Shown here piece after piece: positions 21,195-37,607 of a stretch of DNA of 37,607 nucleotides. The translations under genes and the position numbers were made by a program. The stretch is taken from positions 1 through 37,607 of the IMG/VR virus record IMGVR_UViG_3300034066_000754; one strand, 5' to 3'. This DNA is from a virus. Positions within the stretch are counted from its first letter, which is position 1, and each line of letters begins with the position of its first letter. A model generated the notes under the pieces. The model worked only from the letters and a program-made list of their open reading frames with translations, did not search any database and was not told the DNA's origin.

Positions 21195-21292
21195 TCGCAA
21201 ATGATCAGATACCCGAAGCCGATCACCAGCGCCATCGTAAACGCAAACTGGATCACCTCGCCGGGTGGGATATTGAGGAGAGCGGAGGTCAC
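21176..21292 (-). CDS. 38-residue single-pass membrane protein
   Basis: GTG at 21292 overlaps the stop of the regulator gene (GTGA) and has GGAGG seven bases upstream. Residues about 13-33 (VIQFAFTMALVIGFGYLII) are one membrane helix; the tail is CDIGRPR. Function unknown. Confidence 0.55.
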   Translation of the reverse strand: MTSALLNIPPGEVIQFAFTMALVIGFGYLIICDIGRPR

Positions 21293-21462
21293 GCCGCTAC
21301 CTCCGCCGCCTGCAACTGAGCGAGCCGCATTCGAATGTACTGCGCCTGGGTGAGCTTCAGTGCAGCAGCCTCGGCCTCTACCCACGGCACCTGATCGGGC
21401 TCCAATGACACGCAAATACGTTTTGTACCGTTTTGCGCCGTTTCGTTACGTTCTGCGTTCAT
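21289..21462 (-). CDS. Ribbon-helix-helix (Arc/CopG-like) regulator
   Basis: The product is 57 residues. A short strand, GTKRICVSLEPDQ, is followed by two helices (PWVEAEAAALKLT and QAQYIRMRLAQLQ), the layout of a dimeric ribbon-helix-helix DNA-binding protein. It is the only clear DNA-binding regulator candidate in the genome. It lies first after an internal terminator and an AT-rich segment with inverted repeats, fitting autoregulation. Its targets, possibly also the palindrome at 22357-22376, are not known. Confidence 0.7.
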   Translation of the reverse strand: MNAERNETAQNGTKRICVSLEPDQVPWVEAEAAALKLTQAQYIRMRLAQLQAAEVAA

Positions 21463-21548
21463 ATGACAACATTACGTCAGGTGACCGCCGGTTGTCTACA
21501 AAAATTACGAAACAAATTTTGACCGGCGAAAATTTTCCCCTGAAACGC
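21463..21548 (-). promoter_or_regulatory. AT-rich leader with inverted repeats upstream of the RHH gene
   Basis: Arms GACAAC (21465-21470) and GTTGTC (21491-21496) flank GTCA-GG-TGAC (21476-21485), a nested two-fold arrangement suitable for an RHH operator. The segment 21497-21540 is very AT-rich compared with the genome. A weak promoter (TTCGCC, 17 bases, TAATTT) can be drawn on the minus strand but I am not confident of it. Confidence 0.45.
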
Positions 21549-21573
21549 AAAAGACCCCGCGCTAGGCGGGGTC
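21549..21573 (-). terminator. Intrinsic terminator after the early block
   Basis: GACCCCGC and GCGGGGTC pair perfectly (8) around GCTAG, followed on the minus strand by TTTT. The loop contains the stop codon of the upstream gene. It would end transcription from the 22379 promoter before the RHH gene unless bypassed. Confidence 0.7.
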
Positions 21574-21777
21574 ATGCGGGCACGGGCGGCGGCGAAGGCG
21601 GGCCGATACCACAGCGCCGCACCGCGGGCACGGTGCCAGCTTGGGCGGCTTGCCTGGTGGCCGCTTGCGGCGGGCCAGTTCGGCTTCGAGGGCTTCGCGG
21701 GGGATGCGGGAGAGGTCGGGGAGTTTAGGGATAGGCCTCTGTGGGCAATCGCACGCCCCGCTGCGCAAGCATCTCAA
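21562..21777 (-). CDS. Small zinc-ribbon-like protein, uncertain start
   Basis: A frame encoding up to 71 residues with no ATG; TTG at 21777 or 21768 are the only early starts. The body PDLSRIPREALEAELARRKR followed by a Pro/Lys stretch and LAPCPRCGAVV plus PCPH gives a zinc-ribbon-like end. Coding style is convincing but the start is not. Stop lies inside a terminator hairpin loop. Confidence 0.45.
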   Translation of the reverse strand: MRCLRSGACDCPQRPIPKLPDLSRIPREALEAELARRKRPPGKPPKLAPCPRCGAVVSARLRRRPCPHDPA

Positions 21778-21970
21778 CCAACAATTCCGCGCTCATCCCG
21801 CCGCCGCAGTTAATCGCGGCAAGGCAATCGGCCGATGTGCCACGCGGTTCATCGGTGGCGTGGGTGTAGCCGTCCGTTCCTTCCCAGAAGGTCATGTCCT
21901 GTTCGTGGGTGCATTCGTCGCTCATGATTGCAGCGATGCGCTTGATGTCTTCGGTAGTCTTGAGTATCAT
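21725..21970 (-). CDS. Small acidic early protein
   Basis: The product is 81 residues. GGAG lies four bases before ATG at 21970. It starts MILKTTEDIKRIAAIMSDEC, has HATDEPRGTSADCLAAINCG, and two Cys near the centre. No motif is known. It overlaps the next small frame by about 50 bases. Confidence 0.6.
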   Translation of the reverse strand: MILKTTEDIKRIAAIMSDECTHEQDMTFWEGTDGYTHATDEPRGTSADCLAAINCGGGMSAELLVEMLAQRGVRLPTEAYP

Positions 21971-22027
21971 GGTTCTCCGGCCTCCCAGCCGGTGGATTAA
22001 AACATTTTGTTGATTGCTGTTGGACTA

Positions 22028-22053
22028 GGCCGGGCGGCTAGCCCGGCCTTTTT
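22028..22053 (+). terminator. Plus-strand-oriented intrinsic terminator
   Basis: GGCCGGGC and GCCCGGCC pair perfectly around GGCTA and are followed on the plus strand by TTTTT. On the minus strand no U-run follows. It would stop transcription in the opposite direction to all genes here, just before the early promoter region. Confidence 0.6.
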
Positions 22054-22056
22054 CAT

Positions 22057-22326
22057 TTACGCCGCTTCGAGCAGCTTTACCGCCAATGCCGTCCAGCGCA
22101 CAAGCGCTTCGCCGGTGGCCTGATCGTCGCGGCGCCCCTTCAGTATGTCGATGATGGTTCCGGCGGCCAAGGCCTGCGCCTTTGCGGTCGCGGCATCAAT
22201 GCGGGCGATCAGCGCCGTGGCTTTCGGATTGTCGGCGGGGATCATCGCCTTCCATGTCGCTACGCCTTCGGCATACTGCGCCATCAGGTCGGCTGCATAT
22301 TCGATTTGCTTAACAGTGCCAGTCAT
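22057..22326 (-). CDS. First early protein, unknown
   Basis: The product is 89 residues from ATG at 22326 (MTGTVKQIEYAADLMAQYAE), with GGAG nine bases upstream. It is the first gene after the promoter at 22379, whose start would lie about 18 bases before the ATG. Helical with Ala-rich segments (IDAATAKAQALAAGTII). It could be a host-takeover or regulatory protein by position; no family recognised. Confidence 0.65.
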   Translation of the reverse strand: MTGTVKQIEYAADLMAQYAEGVATWKAMIPADNPKATALIARIDAATAKAQALAAGTIIDILKGRRDDQATGEALVRWTALAVKLLEAA

Positions 22327-22350
22327 TTGCTTGATCTCCTCTACACCTCC

Positions 22351-22379
22351 AGAATACACATACTCCACAGTATGTGCAA
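22351..22379 (-). promoter_or_regulatory. Early promoter (sigma-70-like)
   Basis: Minus strand -35 TTGCAC (22379-22374), a spacer of exactly 17 bases, -10 TATTCT (22356-22351). Predicted start is near 22344, shortly before the ribosome site of the first early gene. It lies directly after the terminators that end the late region. Confidence 0.75.
22357..22376. promoter_or_regulatory. Operator-like palindrome inside the early promoter
   Basis: CACATACT and AGTATGTG are perfect 8-base arms separated by CCAC. The site fills the promoter spacer, covering the last three bases of the -35 and ending at the -10. A bound dimer would block RNA polymerase. The protein is unknown; a host factor or the RHH protein are options. 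Confidence 0.7.
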
Positions 22380-22401: not shown

Positions 22402-22432
22402 AAAAAAAGCCCCTGCCGGTTAGGGCAGGGGC
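22402..22432 (-). terminator. Late terminator 2
   Basis: GCCCCTGCC and GGCAGGGGC (nine pairs) with a six-base loop, followed on the minus strand by seven T. Near-copy of the terminator at 22467. Second stop after the late operon. Plus strand also has an ATTTT after the stem. Confidence 0.85.
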
Positions 22433-22466: not shown

Positions 22467-22497
22467 AAAAAAGCCCCCGCCGGTTAGGGCAGGGGCT
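22467..22497 (-). terminator. Late terminator 1
   Basis: Stem of ten with one mismatch, same loop GGTTAG, six T on the minus strand. It differs from the terminator at 22402 mainly by one base in the arm. It follows the last late gene (stop at 22522) by 25 bases. Confidence 0.85.
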
Positions 22498-22521
22498 CGA
22501 GTATCTACGGCAGTGCGGGCT

Positions 22522-26741: not shown

Positions 26742-27272
26742 TTACCGGGCAGGTTCCCAGATGTAGGTCACCGTGAACGACGGTTCGCAGTGGATCGGCA
26801 CTTCCAGCGTGTTAAGCCACGCAGCCATTTTCACGACCAGGACGTGATCGGCTTCGAGGAGTCCACCAGCTGAAACATCATCGTTAAACGCAGCGCGGGC
26901 TGGCTTGCCGCTCGTTGCTACCTGGACATAGAGCATCGTGTTGTCTGCTGCCCAATCGGCGCGAACGGAGCCATCAGGCGCGGTCGTGGTCAGCCCAAAT
27001 AATGCGCCCGCGTAACCCATGCGGTAGTCTGCCGCCTGAAGGCGTTTCGGCCATATCAGGAAGTCGCCTTGAGCCTTCAGGATTCGTACCCGATGGCCTA
27101 CTGGCGGCTTGAACGTGATCCGGTGCAGGGTGTACCCCGCACGGCCCCAAGTGTCCTGTCGAGTGTCGAGGTCGCCGAGGATGTCCGATGAAAAGTTTGT
27201 CGCCAACATACACGGCGCTTGGCGCGTGCAGGAAAAAGCAGGAAGAGAAAACAGGAGTAAGAGTAGTATCAT
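26742..27272 (-). CDS. Exported protein, possible lipoprotein
   Basis: The product is 176 residues: MILLLLLFSLPAFSC gives a short signal ending at a Cys, close to but not a perfect lipobox, then a beta-rich body (YTLHRITFKPPVGHRVRIL). ATG overlaps the fibre stop (TGATG). It may be a periplasmic or outer-membrane fibre partner, or an o-spanin-like protein. No family recognised. Confidence 0.6.
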   Translation of the reverse strand: MILLLLLFSLPAFSCTRQAPCMLATNFSSDILGDLDTRQDTWGRAGYTLHRITFKPPVGHRVRILKAQGDFLIWPKRLQAADYRMGYAGALFGLTTTAPDGSVRADWAADNTMLYVQVATSGKPARAAFNDDVSAGGLLEADHVLVVKMAAWLNTLEVPIHCEPSFTVTYIWEPAR

Positions 27273-30200
27273 CACATAGCCACCTTGCGAGTTGCCCCGC
27301 CGTTGCAAACTTGAAGTTCGTTCGTATCGGTCCTAAAGCCGATCCACCCATTAGTCACGCCAGAACAGGAAGCGTCACCGCCAGAGAAGGTGCGGATGTA
27401 GAAGTTGCCCGACCCGACGAAAATGGTTGAATTCGTGCCTGATGCCGTCGATATGCCGCCGTTGGCCGTGATTGCGCCGCTAAACGTACCGGTGCCAAGG
27501 TTGGTCAGATTCCGGCTGCTGTCCATCCACTGAGTACCGTTCATAAATGCCGAGGTGGACAGGTACAGCGTTCGCCATGGCGTACCGGAGTAGCCAAGAT
27601 CTCCGTTACTACTGCCGACGTCCAGCGGGTACAGAGTGCCACGAATGCCCCACTGCGTATTACTCGCACTGACAACAACGATACTCATTTCGGTCTGGCC
27701 ACCAGACCCAGAATCGAGGAAATAGGTCGAAGCCCCGTTAAGCCGATGACGCCAGAAACTAGTGACCGTTGTCCCGTTTGCGATTTCTAGATTCGCAGTG
27801 TTGACGAACTGCCCGTAGATATTCCTGAACCGCGTCGAAGACCCGATGTCATAAGCGTCCGTAGTTGTAGCGGCAATCGATGCCGTGAAAGTCTTCGTGC
27901 CGGTTATCGTCTGGTTGGTGTTGGTCGTAACGCAAGTAGCGCAAGCGCCCAGCGGCTCCCATGTCCCATCCCCGCTGCCGTTCGAGGTCAGAACTCGCCC
28001 CGCCGCCGCGCCAGCGGTCAGCCGGAGCCCCGTACTGAGGTACAGCGTTCGCCATGGCGTACCGGAGTAGCCAAGATCTCCGTTACTGCCGCCGACGTTC
28101 AGCGGGTACAGGGTCCCTCTAAACCCAGCCCCGGAGTTGGTAGAACTCAGGGTCTCTAGCCTTACCTCAAGCTGTGACGCCGAGCCGCTCGATATCTCAT
28201 AAGCGGAGGCGGAGTTGAGATTATGCCGCCAGAATGACGCCACGGTGATTCCGTTGGCGACTTCGATATTTGCGGCATTCACCGCCTGCCCGTAGATATT
28301 CCTGAAGCGGGAAGAAGATCCGATATCATGCGTATCAGTCGCGCTCGCCGCCAACGAACCGCCGAACGTCGTAATACCGGACACCGTAGCCGTCCCCGCC
28401 ACAGCCAACCCCGCCGCATTCACGACCACGGAAGCCGTCCGCGTCGCCGCGCCGTTGGCGGTGGTTTCCAAGCGCAGTTCCGTGCCCTGCGCTGATCCCG
28501 GCGTCCAGTTCTGCGTGGCGAATGCCGTGATGTTCGCGCCGTTGTAATTAGTCCCGCCTGTCCTTAACCCGAAGGCATAAAACGCAAGCCGGTCGCCCGA
28601 TGCCGGAGCGGTCTCAATAGCCGCCTGGATGCCCGCGCCGCCCGATGGCGAAGGCGTGCCGGAGTTGTGGATGCGGAGGCCGTTCACGTCCACAGCACGG
28701 CTGAACAGCGTTGCTGTGGTCAGGTCCGTCGAGCCGACTGCGAGGGCCCCCGCAAAGGTCGAGGTGTTACCGAACGTCGCCGCGCCGGTAGCGCGAAACG
28801 TGCCGGATACGTCGAGCTTCGCGGACGGAGATGTACACCCGACGCAAACCGAGCCACCAGAATTCACCAGAGCGATGTCCCGCCAAGCCACACCCTGCGA
28901 AAGTGCATTGATGGAAAAGTACGGCGTCGCGGCTGAAGCAACGAACGCCAGAAATGCACCTTGGCCGGGGGCTCCGGTGTCTCCGTTTCCGATGTGGAGC
29001 GTCGTATCGGCGGTATTCGTCCCGCTGTAAACCTTCGCAGTGGCTCCGATCACTTCGAGCGCGTGCGCTGGAGTCGACGTATTGATGCCCAGGGAGCCTG
29101 CCACGGTCGCGCCTGATGCGCGGGCAACTACCGATGCTGTCCGCGTCGCCGCGCCGTTGGCGGTGGTTTCCAAGCGCAGTTCGGTGCCTTGCGCCGAACC
29201 AAGCGTCCAGGTTTGGGTCGTGAAGGCAGTCACCGACGCGCCGTTGTAGCGGGTGCCGGAGACGAAGCTGCCGAAGCTGTAGAACGCGAGCCGATCCCCG
29301 CTGGAAGGCGTCGATTCCATCGCCGCCTGAATCCCAGCGCCAGCCGTGCTCGATGACGTTCCACTGTTGTGGATGGCGAGGACGTTGACGTCGGAAGTTC
29401 GCGCCAGCAGACGAGCGATTGATGTCGTCGTGTCGCCAATTGCGACGTTTCCGGTGTTGTAGTAGAGGTCGCTCCCGCTCACCACCCACGGCGACGTAGC
29501 AGGCGTGGCCCAGTCGCCGCTGCCATCGGTGCCGGTGGCGGTCCAGACTTGGCCTACGGTCGAGGAAGTCCCGAGTTTCACGGTGCCCGCGAAATCCACG
29601 TCATAGCCCCAGATCTTCCCCATGCGAACCGACGAGGAGCCGATCGGCGTCCCGCCGTCCGTGCCGCCCGCAAATGCAGTCGTCGCCGTGATGGTTCCGG
29701 CCGTCGCGGAGCCCGCGCTCAATGCGTTCGTGATGGTGGCAGCATCGCCCCAGATGGACAACCAACGCGCGGAGGTATTGCCAAGCGTCGGCATTGCCGA
29801 GTCGTTCACCGCGTCGCCGTCTGCCGTGGCGCGCTGAGCGGGCCGGAGTTCGCCGAACACGCGAACATAGTTCGCCGCGCTGGATGCCTCTTGCCGTACC
29901 GCTTGCAATGCACGAGAGCCGCCATTGTCGCGGAGAGTCCACGCGCTCGTTACGGTCGTCGCGTTTGCCCGTTGGTCCCAGAATGCCGTGCCGCCGAGGA
30001 TGTCCGAGATCTCCAGCTTGCGGACCTTCGTGTAGGCGGCCGCCACGCCACCGGGGGCCGCGTTGATGTTTTCGACGTTGAGAGTCTGGAAATAGTTCGT
30101 CGCGTCCCCGATATCCGCCGTCGAAGGCGACGTCGTGAGCATGTGCGAGGAGATCGTAGCCGTCCCCGCAACAGCAAGCGTACTCCCCAACGTCACCGCC

Positions 30201-30742
30201 CCAGTCGCTCGAAACGTCCCGCCCACGTTGAACAGGAACGATGTATCGATTGCGCCCACGCCCACGACACCTTCACGCGGCTGTAGAAGCAACTGATTAT
30301 TGACGCCCCCGTAGGCGTACGTCGTTGGGTCCGTCTGCCCGTCAAGCATCGTCTGGATGCCCATCTGGTTATCGGCAATTCGATACATCACGAGCCGATC
30401 AGCGCCGGCGACACCGAAGTACTTGTACCCTTCGACCTCCTGGTTGGTCGTCGTTAGGACCGCGCCCACACCAGGGCAGGCCGCGAAAGACAACACTCCC
30501 GCCGTGGTGCCTGTAAGGCAGTGGCCGTTCGATGCGGGCGCGGCGCTGGGCAGGGTGAGGGTGTAGGAGGCGGTGGCCGTAGTGGGCGCTTGGATCGTCA
30601 CCAGCTTGCCGTCTGCCCGCCGAGTCAAAAATTGCAGTTGCCCGGTGCTGACGTCGTTGGATGACGGATAGATGGCTATGTCACTAACGCGGAACTGCGC
30701 CAGCGCTGGGAGCGAGAATGCAAGTAGGGCAAGGAGTCTCAT
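27272..30742 (-). CDS. Long tail fibre with N-terminal signal-like segment
   Basis: The product is 1156 residues from ATG at 30742, overlapping the hub stop (TAATG). Residues 1-15, MRLLALLAFSLPALA followed by QFRVSD, read as a Sec signal peptide, which is strange for a virion protein. The rest is Gly/Thr/Ser/Ala-rich beta repeats with phage fibre style (GTFRATGAVTLGSTLAVAG; IGSSTRFRNIYGQ; DLGYSGTPWRTLYLS). Cysteines are few but include CVGC and ACATC. The C-terminus (GWIGFRTDTNELQVCNGG) resembles the ends of bacterial tail-fibre-domain surface proteins. It probably binds the host; the signal raises a surface-exposed alternative. Confidence 0.8.
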   Translation of the reverse strand: MRLLALLAFSLPALAQFRVSDIAIYPSSNDVSTGQLQFLTRRADGKLVTIQAPTTATASYTLTLPSAAPASNGHCLTGTTAGVLSFAACPGVGAVLTTTNQEVEGYKYFGVAGADRLVMYRIADNQMGIQTMLDGQTDPTTYAYGGVNNQLLLQPREGVVGVGAIDTSFLFNVGGTFRATGAVTLGSTLAVAGTATISSHMLTTSPSTADIGDATNYFQTLNVENINAAPGGVAAAYTKVRKLEISDILGGTAFWDQRANATTVTSAWTLRDNGGSRALQAVRQEASSAANYVRVFGELRPAQRATADGDAVNDSAMPTLGNTSARWLSIWGDAATITNALSAGSATAGTITATTAFAGGTDGGTPIGSSSVRMGKIWGYDVDFAGTVKLGTSSTVGQVWTATGTDGSGDWATPATSPWVVSGSDLYYNTGNVAIGDTTTSIARLLARTSDVNVLAIHNSGTSSSTAGAGIQAAMESTPSSGDRLAFYSFGSFVSGTRYNGASVTAFTTQTWTLGSAQGTELRLETTANGAATRTASVVARASGATVAGSLGINTSTPAHALEVIGATAKVYSGTNTADTTLHIGNGDTGAPGQGAFLAFVASAATPYFSINALSQGVAWRDIALVNSGGSVCVGCTSPSAKLDVSGTFRATGAATFGNTSTFAGALAVGSTDLTTATLFSRAVDVNGLRIHNSGTPSPSGGAGIQAAIETAPASGDRLAFYAFGLRTGGTNYNGANITAFATQNWTPGSAQGTELRLETTANGAATRTASVVVNAAGLAVAGTATVSGITTFGGSLAASATDTHDIGSSSRFRNIYGQAVNAANIEVANGITVASFWRHNLNSASAYEISSGSASQLEVRLETLSSTNSGAGFRGTLYPLNVGGSNGDLGYSGTPWRTLYLSTGLRLTAGAAAGRVLTSNGSGDGTWEPLGACATCVTTNTNQTITGTKTFTASIAATTTDAYDIGSSTRFRNIYGQFVNTANLEIANGTTVTSFWRHRLNGASTYFLDSGSGGQTEMSIVVVSASNTQWGIRGTLYPLDVGSSNGDLGYSGTPWRTLYLSTSAFMNGTQWMDSSRNLTNLGTGTFSGAITANGGISTASGTNSTIFVGSGNFYIRTFSGGDASCSGVTNGWIGFRTDTNELQVCNGGATRKVAM
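27561..27610. repeat. Internal duplication in fibre gene, copy 1
   Basis: Fifty bases from AGGTACAGCGTTCGCCATGG on are identical to 28038-28087, and similarity continues on both sides. They encode the repeated LGYSGTPWRTLYLS module. Similar duplications exist around 28437-28482 and 29137-29182. Confidence 0.85.
28038..28087. repeat. Internal duplication in fibre gene, copy 2
   Basis: Identical to 27561-27610, 477 bases further on. It points to recent duplication or gene conversion inside the fibre. Confidence 0.85.
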
Positions 30743-32682
30743 TAGATCAGTCCGAAGGCTGGAGTATTGCAGCGGACGTGCTTTCCGTCGCGCATTGTCA
30801 TGAACTGAAAGACGTTGAGCAGATTCGGGGTCGAGTCGATCCCGACAGCTCCAACGCCGCGAAAATTGCCGCCCCAAACAAGCACTCTCCCGTCTGTACC
30901 ATCGTTCTCGATGATCACGGTGAACATCGTTCCGGGCGTCGATGGGTCGGTGCCAAAAACGGCATCGCTGATCGTGGTGGTGGCGCGGTCGAGTAGGATT
31001 TCCTGAGTGAGCCCGTTCGACAGGTCAAGCGTGATCGTCGTAGCCCCGCCAACGTAATAGATGCCGCCTGAAGTGCTGTAAGGAGCCGCAGGCGTCAGAA
31101 CTCCGCCCGAGATAACGCCGCTCGACGTTCCGCCGCCGATCATGGCTTTCCAGTACTCCTGGATGCCAATGATGGATGTTCCACTGATAGCCCGCACGCG
31201 CGCCTTGAGATACTGGCCAGCGACGTCCGTCAGGTAGACCTCATTTACCAGATACGTGGCCGAACTCACCCCGCGCGGGGTATTCGCTACGGTCTGGAGT
31301 TGCCCCGGTTTGACCGTAGCGCAAAGCGGCTCAATAATCTGGTCGGTCTCATACTCGACCTCGACAACCGGGTTCTTCCGCGCCGCGATCACGGCCTCAG
31401 CCGCTAAGAATGCTTGGACTTGCCCGATCTCCCGCTCTGTGTAACGCTCATATCGTCCGCTGCCGCCGTCTTCCTGCGTGATCGTTGCCGCGATATCAGT
31501 GGCGTCCTCGGCAGTCACCACGTCGGCCCCGAGTTTCTGGTAGATGACCTGAAGCGTGTTATCGGTCGTAAGGACGTCGTTTGCGCTGTTCTGCCGGATC
31601 TTCGTTGATCCGTATTCCCAGTACCAGTCCCGGTCGGTATCGGCGAGGAACTGCCCGATTTCGGCAACCTGTCCATCTACGCTGATGCTGACGATCTGGG
31701 CGACTTGGTTGGTCAGTGTGAACGTCCGCGCAGATCCGTCGCCCGGGAACGATTCAGTCTCGCTGACGATCTGGTTCCAAGGCACCCGGGTCAGGATCGC
31801 GTTTACCTTGTCTTCGCGGGTACGCCGGATGCGGAGTGAGCGATAATTGGCGCTGCTGGTCGAGATACTGAACGGTGCCGCTGCAAACGTGCGCGGCTTG
31901 AAGTACAGTTCCAGCTCCTCGTCCATCCACACAGCGAAGCCGCATACTTGGGCGAGTTCGTTGATCGCTTCCATAACGCTGGTGTTGGCGTCGAACGTCA
32001 CCACGTCGAGCACAGCGCCCGCGTCGACGTTCGTGGTGCCGATGCCCTCGTTCGATGCGTAGTTAGTCACTAGGTCCACCACGACATCGCCCGCGCGGGT
32101 GGTGAGCAGGACCTGGTCCAGCGTGCCGTCGTCCAGGATGTTTACCGCACTGCCGCCGCTCGTCAGGGATAGCTGGAGCGTGCTCCCGGATGCGCCGATG
32201 ACAAAGTACTCGATGGTTGCATCGAGCCCGTCGCAAAGCGTTCCCTGCGCGTGCGCCTTTACACGTACCCGGTCCCCGTTGCTACGGCCGTGCGCGGATA
32301 CCGTCGTCAGCGTGTCCGTTGCCGGATTGGCGGTGAAAAGAAACGTTCCGTTGTAGTGCGCCGGAACAGACGTGCTCGGGTTGTAGCAGCGCCGCCGATC
32401 CAAGCGCTGCTCCCAGGTGATGCCCCGGATATCATAAAACGCGCCTGCGGCTGAGCCCGCCTCAGTGATCGAAACCTCGGATACCTCATCGACCGATCCG
32501 GCCCATAGCTTCGTTGCTCCGTCGAACAGTTCGATTTCGTGGCCCTGCTCAGGTCGATACGCGCCGCTCGTTGAGATCACGCGCATATTGAACGATCCAC
32601 GCTGACCGGCCGTCGCCGCGATGTTTAGCGAGTAGTGAGCGATTTCCCGGACGGCGCCGTCGATGTAGACGTCTAGGCTCAC
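30742..32682 (-). CDS. Tail hub / tip protein (gp27-like)
   Basis: The product is 646 residues from GTG at 32682, overlapping the tape measure stop (GTGA). It starts SLDVYIDGAVREIAHYSLNI and has RPEQGHEIELFDGATKLWAG near residue 50, in the style of phage hub proteins. A DEELELYFKPRTFAAAP segment and a C-terminal domain (TPAAPYSTSGGIYYVGGA, WGGNFRG) suggest a fibre-attachment end. It lies directly after the tape measure, the usual place of tail tip proteins. Precise family is inferred. Confidence 0.7.
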   Translation of the reverse strand: MSLDVYIDGAVREIAHYSLNIAATAGQRGSFNMRVISTSGAYRPEQGHEIELFDGATKLWAGSVDEVSEVSITEAGSAAGAFYDIRGITWEQRLDRRRCYNPSTSVPAHYNGTFLFTANPATDTLTTVSAHGRSNGDRVRVKAHAQGTLCDGLDATIEYFVIGASGSTLQLSLTSGGSAVNILDDGTLDQVLLTTRAGDVVVDLVTNYASNEGIGTTNVDAGAVLDVVTFDANTSVMEAINELAQVCGFAVWMDEELELYFKPRTFAAAPFSISTSSANYRSLRIRRTREDKVNAILTRVPWNQIVSETESFPGDGSARTFTLTNQVAQIVSISVDGQVAEIGQFLADTDRDWYWEYGSTKIRQNSANDVLTTDNTLQVIYQKLGADVVTAEDATDIAATITQEDGGSGRYERYTEREIGQVQAFLAAEAVIAARKNPVVEVEYETDQIIEPLCATVKPGQLQTVANTPRGVSSATYLVNEVYLTDVAGQYLKARVRAISGTSIIGIQEYWKAMIGGGTSSGVISGGVLTPAAPYSTSGGIYYVGGATTITLDLSNGLTQEILLDRATTTISDAVFGTDPSTPGTMFTVIIENDGTDGRVLVWGGNFRGVGAVGIDSTPNLLNVFQFMTMRDGKHVRCNTPAFGLI

Positions 32683-37208: not shown

Positions 37209-37607
37209 GCGGCCCTTCCGATGGCATCAAACGCGGCTTTAACGCGCTGCTCCAATAACCGCTTGATCCGCAAGCGTTGGGACTTGATCGCGTTTTGAAA
37301 GAACGGGTTTGGCCGGCTGCCGGGGTGTTGGATCTTCGTCCGCACCTGATCGCCAACCCGCGCAAGCCACTGGAACGCCCGCGCCGCTATCCGCATTTTC
37401 TTGCCAGCAATCGTGTGCGGCTTCGTCCCGAACTCGACTAGATGCGCGTGGGGTGCCGCATCTTTCAACGTGAAAGCGAACGCCTGCAAGAAGTTTTTGT
37501 ATTTGCGCCCAGAGGCGGCCCTGAGCGATTCCCGCAACCCGCCCGGCTGATACGTCTTTCCGCGCTGGCGCGTCGCGTAGGGCGCGATGGGTGCGCGGCG
37601 GGCGGCC
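37205..37607 (-). CDS. HK97 gp10-like tail completion protein (C-terminal part, cut by window edge)
   Basis: The frame continues into the right edge and joins the 88 codons at 264-1. The last 91 residues contain KYKNFLQAFAFTLKDAAPHA, HLVEFGTKPHTIAGKK and NPFFQNAIKSQR, all typical of HK97 gp10. The overlap region 37481-37607 is the terminal repeat. Stop at 37205 overlaps the tail terminator ATG. Confidence 0.88.
   Translation of the reverse strand, partial: AARRAPIAPYATRQRGKTYQPGGLRESLRAASGRKYKNFLQAFAFTLKDAAPHAHLVEFGTKPHTIAGKKMRIAARAFQWLARVGDQVRTKIQHPGSRPNPFFQNAIKSQRLRIKRLLEQRVKAAFDAIGRAA
37481..37607. repeat. Terminal direct repeat, right copy
   Basis: Identical to bases 1-127; read as circular closure. 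Removing one copy gives a 37,480-bp circle. Confidence 0.95.

Follow-up and report, generated by a model that had tools for sequence, protein, structure and literature searches.

A candidate operator palindrome heads an exchangeable gene cassette at the late/early junction of an uncultured phage genome

We analysed the whole of a 37,607-bp IMG/VR viral contig (hereafter the window). Its ends share an exact 127-bp overlap (positions 1-127 and 37481-37607), so that the window most likely represents the full circular map, some 37,480 bp long; the contig is classed as linear despite this probable completeness. The recognised genes lie on the minus strand and comprise portal, TerL, head, tail and holin genes, followed by terminators and the palindrome region that is the subject of this report. 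Beyond that region, on the same strand, are RecE, RecT, a replication initiator, methyltransferases and HNH. Neither an integrase nor a CI-like repressor was recognised among the proteins searched or among the large novel ORFs of two relatives of 42-43 kb, in agreement with the original prediction, which had found no CI-like repressor; small ORFs without matches could hide either one. The phage is probably a circularly permuted one of siphovirus type, and we infer that it is virulent. By DNA it has no relatives among cultured phages, the TerL and Rep proteins have only distant cultured-phage matches, and a host search with TerL in genome contigs gave one uninformative match at 35%. Elsewhere in the window, an internal repeat (28393-29392) lies within a 1201-aa ORF (27272-30877), where relatives align twice, about 730 bp apart.

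The late genes are followed by two intrinsic terminators on the minus strand. T1 (22471-22498, GAGCCCCTGCCCTAACCGGCGGGGGCTTTTTTCG) comes after the last late gene and is kept in the relatives L042 and L047 and in all cassette-bearing relatives. T2 (22409-22432, GCCCCTGCCCTAACCGGCAGGGGCTTTTTTT) lies at a distance of 64 bp and is almost the same sequence as T1; at this site L008 and L036 have one terminator copy, and L010 and L041 have a copy on each side of the cassette. Directly after the terminators, positions 22379-22351 of the minus strand read TTGCAC-ATACTGTGGAGTATGTG-TATTCT. The -35 like hexamer TTGCAC (22379-22374) matches three of six consensus bases and the -10 like hexamer TATTCT (22356-22351) four of six, with a spacing of 17 nt and a predicted start near 22344. 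Between them lies a perfect 20-bp palindrome, CACATACT-CCAC-AGTATGTG (22357-22376), which reads CACATACT-GTGG-AGTATGTG on the minus strand (22376-22357) and is a probable operator. Its left arm takes in the final three bases of TTGCAC, and its right arm abuts TATTCT. Palindrome and hexamers are thus exactly where the original prediction had placed them, in an operator-like arrangement just past the late-operon terminators of a one-strand genome. Two terminator copies lie upstream of this candidate promoter, and a good Shine-Dalgarno sequence and ATG (22326) lie downstream.

The original prediction called this promoter a good sigma-70-like one. "Good" overstates a total of 7 of 12 consensus bases, which is moderate rather than strong by a sigma-70 consensus that may not be the host's. 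A simple sigma-70 matrix ranked TTGCAC-17-TATTCT 18th of about 75,000 positions, and consensus promoter scans did not list it. The palindrome is more unusual for where it lies than for what it is. Specifically, an inverted repeat as good (arms of at least 8 bp, loop of at most 8) arose in 0.3% of 5,000 dinucleotide shuffles when the 78 bp separating the terminator from the start codon were shuffled, so the overlap of dyad and promoter exceeds chance by local shuffling. Counted window-wide, these repeats show no enrichment (11 observed versus 4-15 in shuffles), which makes the palindrome notable by position. The window has no second copy of it when up to three mismatches are allowed, and at the same threshold no further copies were found in the relatives.

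The likeliest function of such a palindrome would be repression by a dimeric protein bound to it. In lac-type or phage operator/promoter overlaps, a dyad lies in the spacer between -35 and -10 and the bound repressor excludes polymerase. The dyad here is likewise within the spacer of a candidate sigma-70-like promoter, but unlike those systems it is a single candidate site and is flanked by moderate hexamers. We know of no operator of a known host regulator that fits the 20-mer. A MerR-type operator is not favoured, as the spacer is 17 nt and that of the MerR type 19-20. The same 16 arm letters also occur in L012, L020, L023-L026, L031 and L034, where they are terminator stems of AT-rich phages; the remaining matches in other viruses stand in unrelated contexts and are attributed to chance. 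Conserved dyads near gene starts have been described in mycobacteriophages, as the ESAS of Cluster K and the 17-bp palindromes of Cluster O (PMC3203893, PMC4351075); those elements are present many times per genome (more than 30 in Cluster O), in contrast to the one palindrome here. The palindrome could also act in RNA, as a hairpin for stability or regulation in a longer leader that starts upstream of 22379. A stem of 8-10 bp is possible in the minus-strand RNA, but it folds no better than shuffled sequence (z -0.8) and the promoter scans listed nothing better in the stretch from T2 to the palindrome, so that we consider this explanation very improbable.

Three small ORFs lie behind the promoter on the minus strand. 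Gene 1 (22057-22326, 89 aa, Shine-Dalgarno GAGGAG) and gene 2 (21725-21970, 81 aa) belong to no family. Gene 3 (21562-21777, with a candidate start codon) is a zinc-ribbon-like ORF whose conserved part of 54 residues (21562-21726) overlaps the terminator T3. Its zinc-ribbon/Ogr matches are weak, and a search of cultured phages gave no match. T3 (21553-21573, GACCCCGCCTAGCGCGGGGTCTTTTGCG) ends the cassette; its U tract is short, so read-through into the gene beyond is possible. Judged by sequence only, the cassette has its own promoter and its own terminator. A strong hairpin, AGGCCGGGC..GCCCGGCCT (22027-22049), lies between genes 1 and 2; its T tract is on the plus strand, which has no recognised gene.

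The early block with RecE and RecT opens with a gene (21289-21462, minus strand) for a ribbon-helix-helix (RHH) protein of 57 aa. Profile and structure comparison support a strand-helix-helix core similar to that of CopG and NikA: a NikA-like Pfam family matched a relative's protein weakly (0.003), CopG matched at E=0.02, and the top Foldseek matches were RHH proteins, though at E>0.1. The ATG (21462) lacks a Shine-Dalgarno sequence. Upstream of it, the -35 like hexamer TAGACA (21493-21498; five of six consensus bases, TTGACA in L042 and L047) stands 18 nt above the -10 like hexamer TAATGT (21469-21474), which ends 6 nt before the ATG in a leaderless arrangement. Among the 492 coding-strand ATGs in the window, that of the RHH gene is the only one with TANNNT at -12 to -7. 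Every relative in which the start is covered has TA at -12/-11; the -10 variants are TAATCT, TAATGT, TAAATT and TAGATT, with TAAAAA in L049-L051, and the arrangement of -10 and ATG is kept down to about 67% RecE identity. The palindrome promoter is not the only such promoter in this genome, as had been claimed, since a better-conserved one precedes the RHH gene.

We regard 21498-21469 as a probable early promoter of the leaderless type, and the main early switch more likely lies there, about 900 bases beyond the palindrome. Leaderless SigA promoters with +1 at the first codon have been predicted in Cluster O mycobacteriophages (PMC4351075), and the arrangement here is the one predicted there. 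An inverted repeat, TGAC-N8-GTCA (21464-21479), covers the -10 and becomes TGGC-N8-GCCA in relatives. This paired change, one event and hence weak, hints at a possible autoregulatory operator. In L061-L063, GGTTAGAA-N12-TTCTAACC frames the RHH promoter (the region of 21464-21498 in the window).

The original prediction took the palindrome promoter for the master switch of the phage, at which a repressor would decide the start of the whole early programme. On the circular map, with its genes on one strand, no other promoter stands closer behind the late terminators, and small variable ORFs beside a first promoter, as found here, are compatible with an immediate-early host-takeover module. The relatives argue otherwise. 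L042 and L047, whose late genes are about 92% identical to those of the window, have neither promoter nor palindrome nor cassette: the late terminators are kept and are followed directly by TTGACA-16-TAATCT-6-ATG and an RHH gene. The cassette occupies a fixed site, present in the window and 13 contigs and absent in these two close relatives. The palindrome is also absent at the start of the early block in L049-L064 and in more distant relatives generally (RecE 64-69% identical), in most of which the tail gene runs into an RHH gene. None of the relatives compared has the palindrome without the promoter or the promoter without the palindrome. Moreover, the unit stops at T3 (21573-21553), with a further terminator in L010 and L041. 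The RHH/RecE/RecT block beyond has a promoter motif of its own wherever its start is covered, and contigs that are otherwise identical have different gene sets behind the same promoter block. A master early promoter at the palindrome is, on this evidence, quite unlikely.

The alternative gene sets come from the 13 IMG/VR contigs that carry TATTCTGGAGGTGTAGAG. Both the palindrome and TTGCAC are the same in 13 of 13, and the promoter block is free of substitutions throughout. Genes 1 and 2 are found in version A of the cassette (the window, L008 and others), and versions B (L010, L017) and C (L041, L022) have other small genes in their place; gene 3 is the only ORF common to all versions. Between the window and L010, the block has no substitutions in 63 positions and one length change, in a T tract, versus 48/606 for the tail gene and 17/200 for gene 3. 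At 8% divergence about 5 changes would be expected in the block, and by our own arithmetic the probability of none is about 0.6%. The block shows no substitutions, and hence no paired changes in the two arms that would speak for the symmetry.

The clearest comparison is that of L010 with L041. The two are identical in the tail region (0/610), the promoter block, the RHH promoter and the RHH gene, but between the block and gene 3, which itself differs at 12/200, they have different genes. Identical flanks with different cargo mean that the cassette was swapped between them. At its far end both have a second copy of the tail-gene end and terminator, about 57 bp and 95% identical, so that the unit is flanked by direct repeats. 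Such repeats are possible recombination handles in a phage with RecE and RecT. A hairpin, AGCCGC-TGAG-GCGGCT, stands just before the Shine-Dalgarno sequence in the 5' leaders of versions B and C (L010, L041) and is absent in version A. In another relative (G001, L155 15322-17683) the variable region holds PAPS reductase-like and ParB-like genes, a set different from that of the window.

The identity of the block may reflect selection or recent recombination at the seam, either of which explains it. If the latter, the symmetry could be incidental, the block being identical as the seam of cassette exchange and its promoter constitutive. This would fit the way in which the cargo changes immediately behind the block in L010 and L041, as well as the repeated terminators alongside, the RecE and RecT that the phage encodes and the lack of window-wide enrichment of 8-bp arms. 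It fits poorly with the 0.3% chance of such a repeat in the gap and its near-exact placement between the two hexamers, and we think it rather unlikely.

As for the protein that would bind, the RHH protein (21289-21462) is a candidate, which as it accumulates would shut the cassette. RHH proteins such as CopG are repressors, the 13 contigs with the palindrome are precisely those with a type-1 RHH gene, and the two cassette-less relatives carry RHH proteins 43-46% identical. However, gene 3 also occurs in those 13 contigs, and both genes are such close neighbours of the block (about 0.9 kb for the RHH gene) that linkage is enough to explain the co-occurrence. RHH alleles also shuffle against cassettes while the palindrome stays unchanged: L010 and L017 share a cassette yet differ at 34/171 positions in the RHH gene, and the window differs from L008 at 38/171. 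Similarity of the first early gene to CopG/Arc-type repressors extends to the fold, but the gene's own promoter lacks the palindrome motif and no similar site was found in the region before it. Binding of the palindrome by the RHH protein is therefore putative, and we rate it as unlikely.

We favour, with moderate confidence, the reading that the palindrome is an operator in the promoter of an accessory cassette, exchangeable and bounded by terminators, where the late genes meet the early ones. An accessory transcription unit of about 0.8 kb, with three small ORFs, would have been inserted between the late and early operons, and host RNA polymerase would read it from about 22344 to T3 at 21553. 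A dimeric repressor on the two 8-bp arms would cover the end of the -35 to the start of the -10 and so keep polymerase off the cassette promoter. The unit is exchangeable, in that relatives have the same terminator/promoter/operator block before other genes or lack the unit altogether, and the early block (RHH, RecE, RecT and replication) would be started from its own leaderless-type promoter. The sequences themselves show the palindrome and hexamers, their exact conservation, the cassette swap, the absence from two relatives and the separate RHH promoter motif, and from these we infer promoter activity, repression and timing. Points against this reading are the 7/12 promoter, the single operator, the short U tract of T3, which may let transcripts continue into the RHH gene, and an identity of the block that may come from recent recombination at the seam.

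The best reading of the cassette is that it belongs to the known moron-like kind (PMC7067206). Like morons and other accessory loci, it lies between phage operons with its own promoter and terminator, contains small non-conserved ORFs and is carried by some close relatives but not by others. Unlike morons, which are described mostly for prophages, it is in a phage in which we found no integrase or CI, and exchange of the cargo leaves its promoter/operator block unchanged. More tentatively, the block could be a portable "regulated socket", its sequence preserved to the letter as different small-gene toolkits are recombined behind it via the repeated terminators and RecE/RecT; a regulator from phage or host would then read the palindrome regardless of which genes follow. 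We consider this possible, if doubtful.

These results correct which promoter likely starts the early programme of this phage. They also provide a clear case in which an accessory cassette, probably a regulated one, has been swapped in an otherwise identical background, and the conserved block marks the place where this group of uncultured phages carries variable genes with a possible anti-host role.
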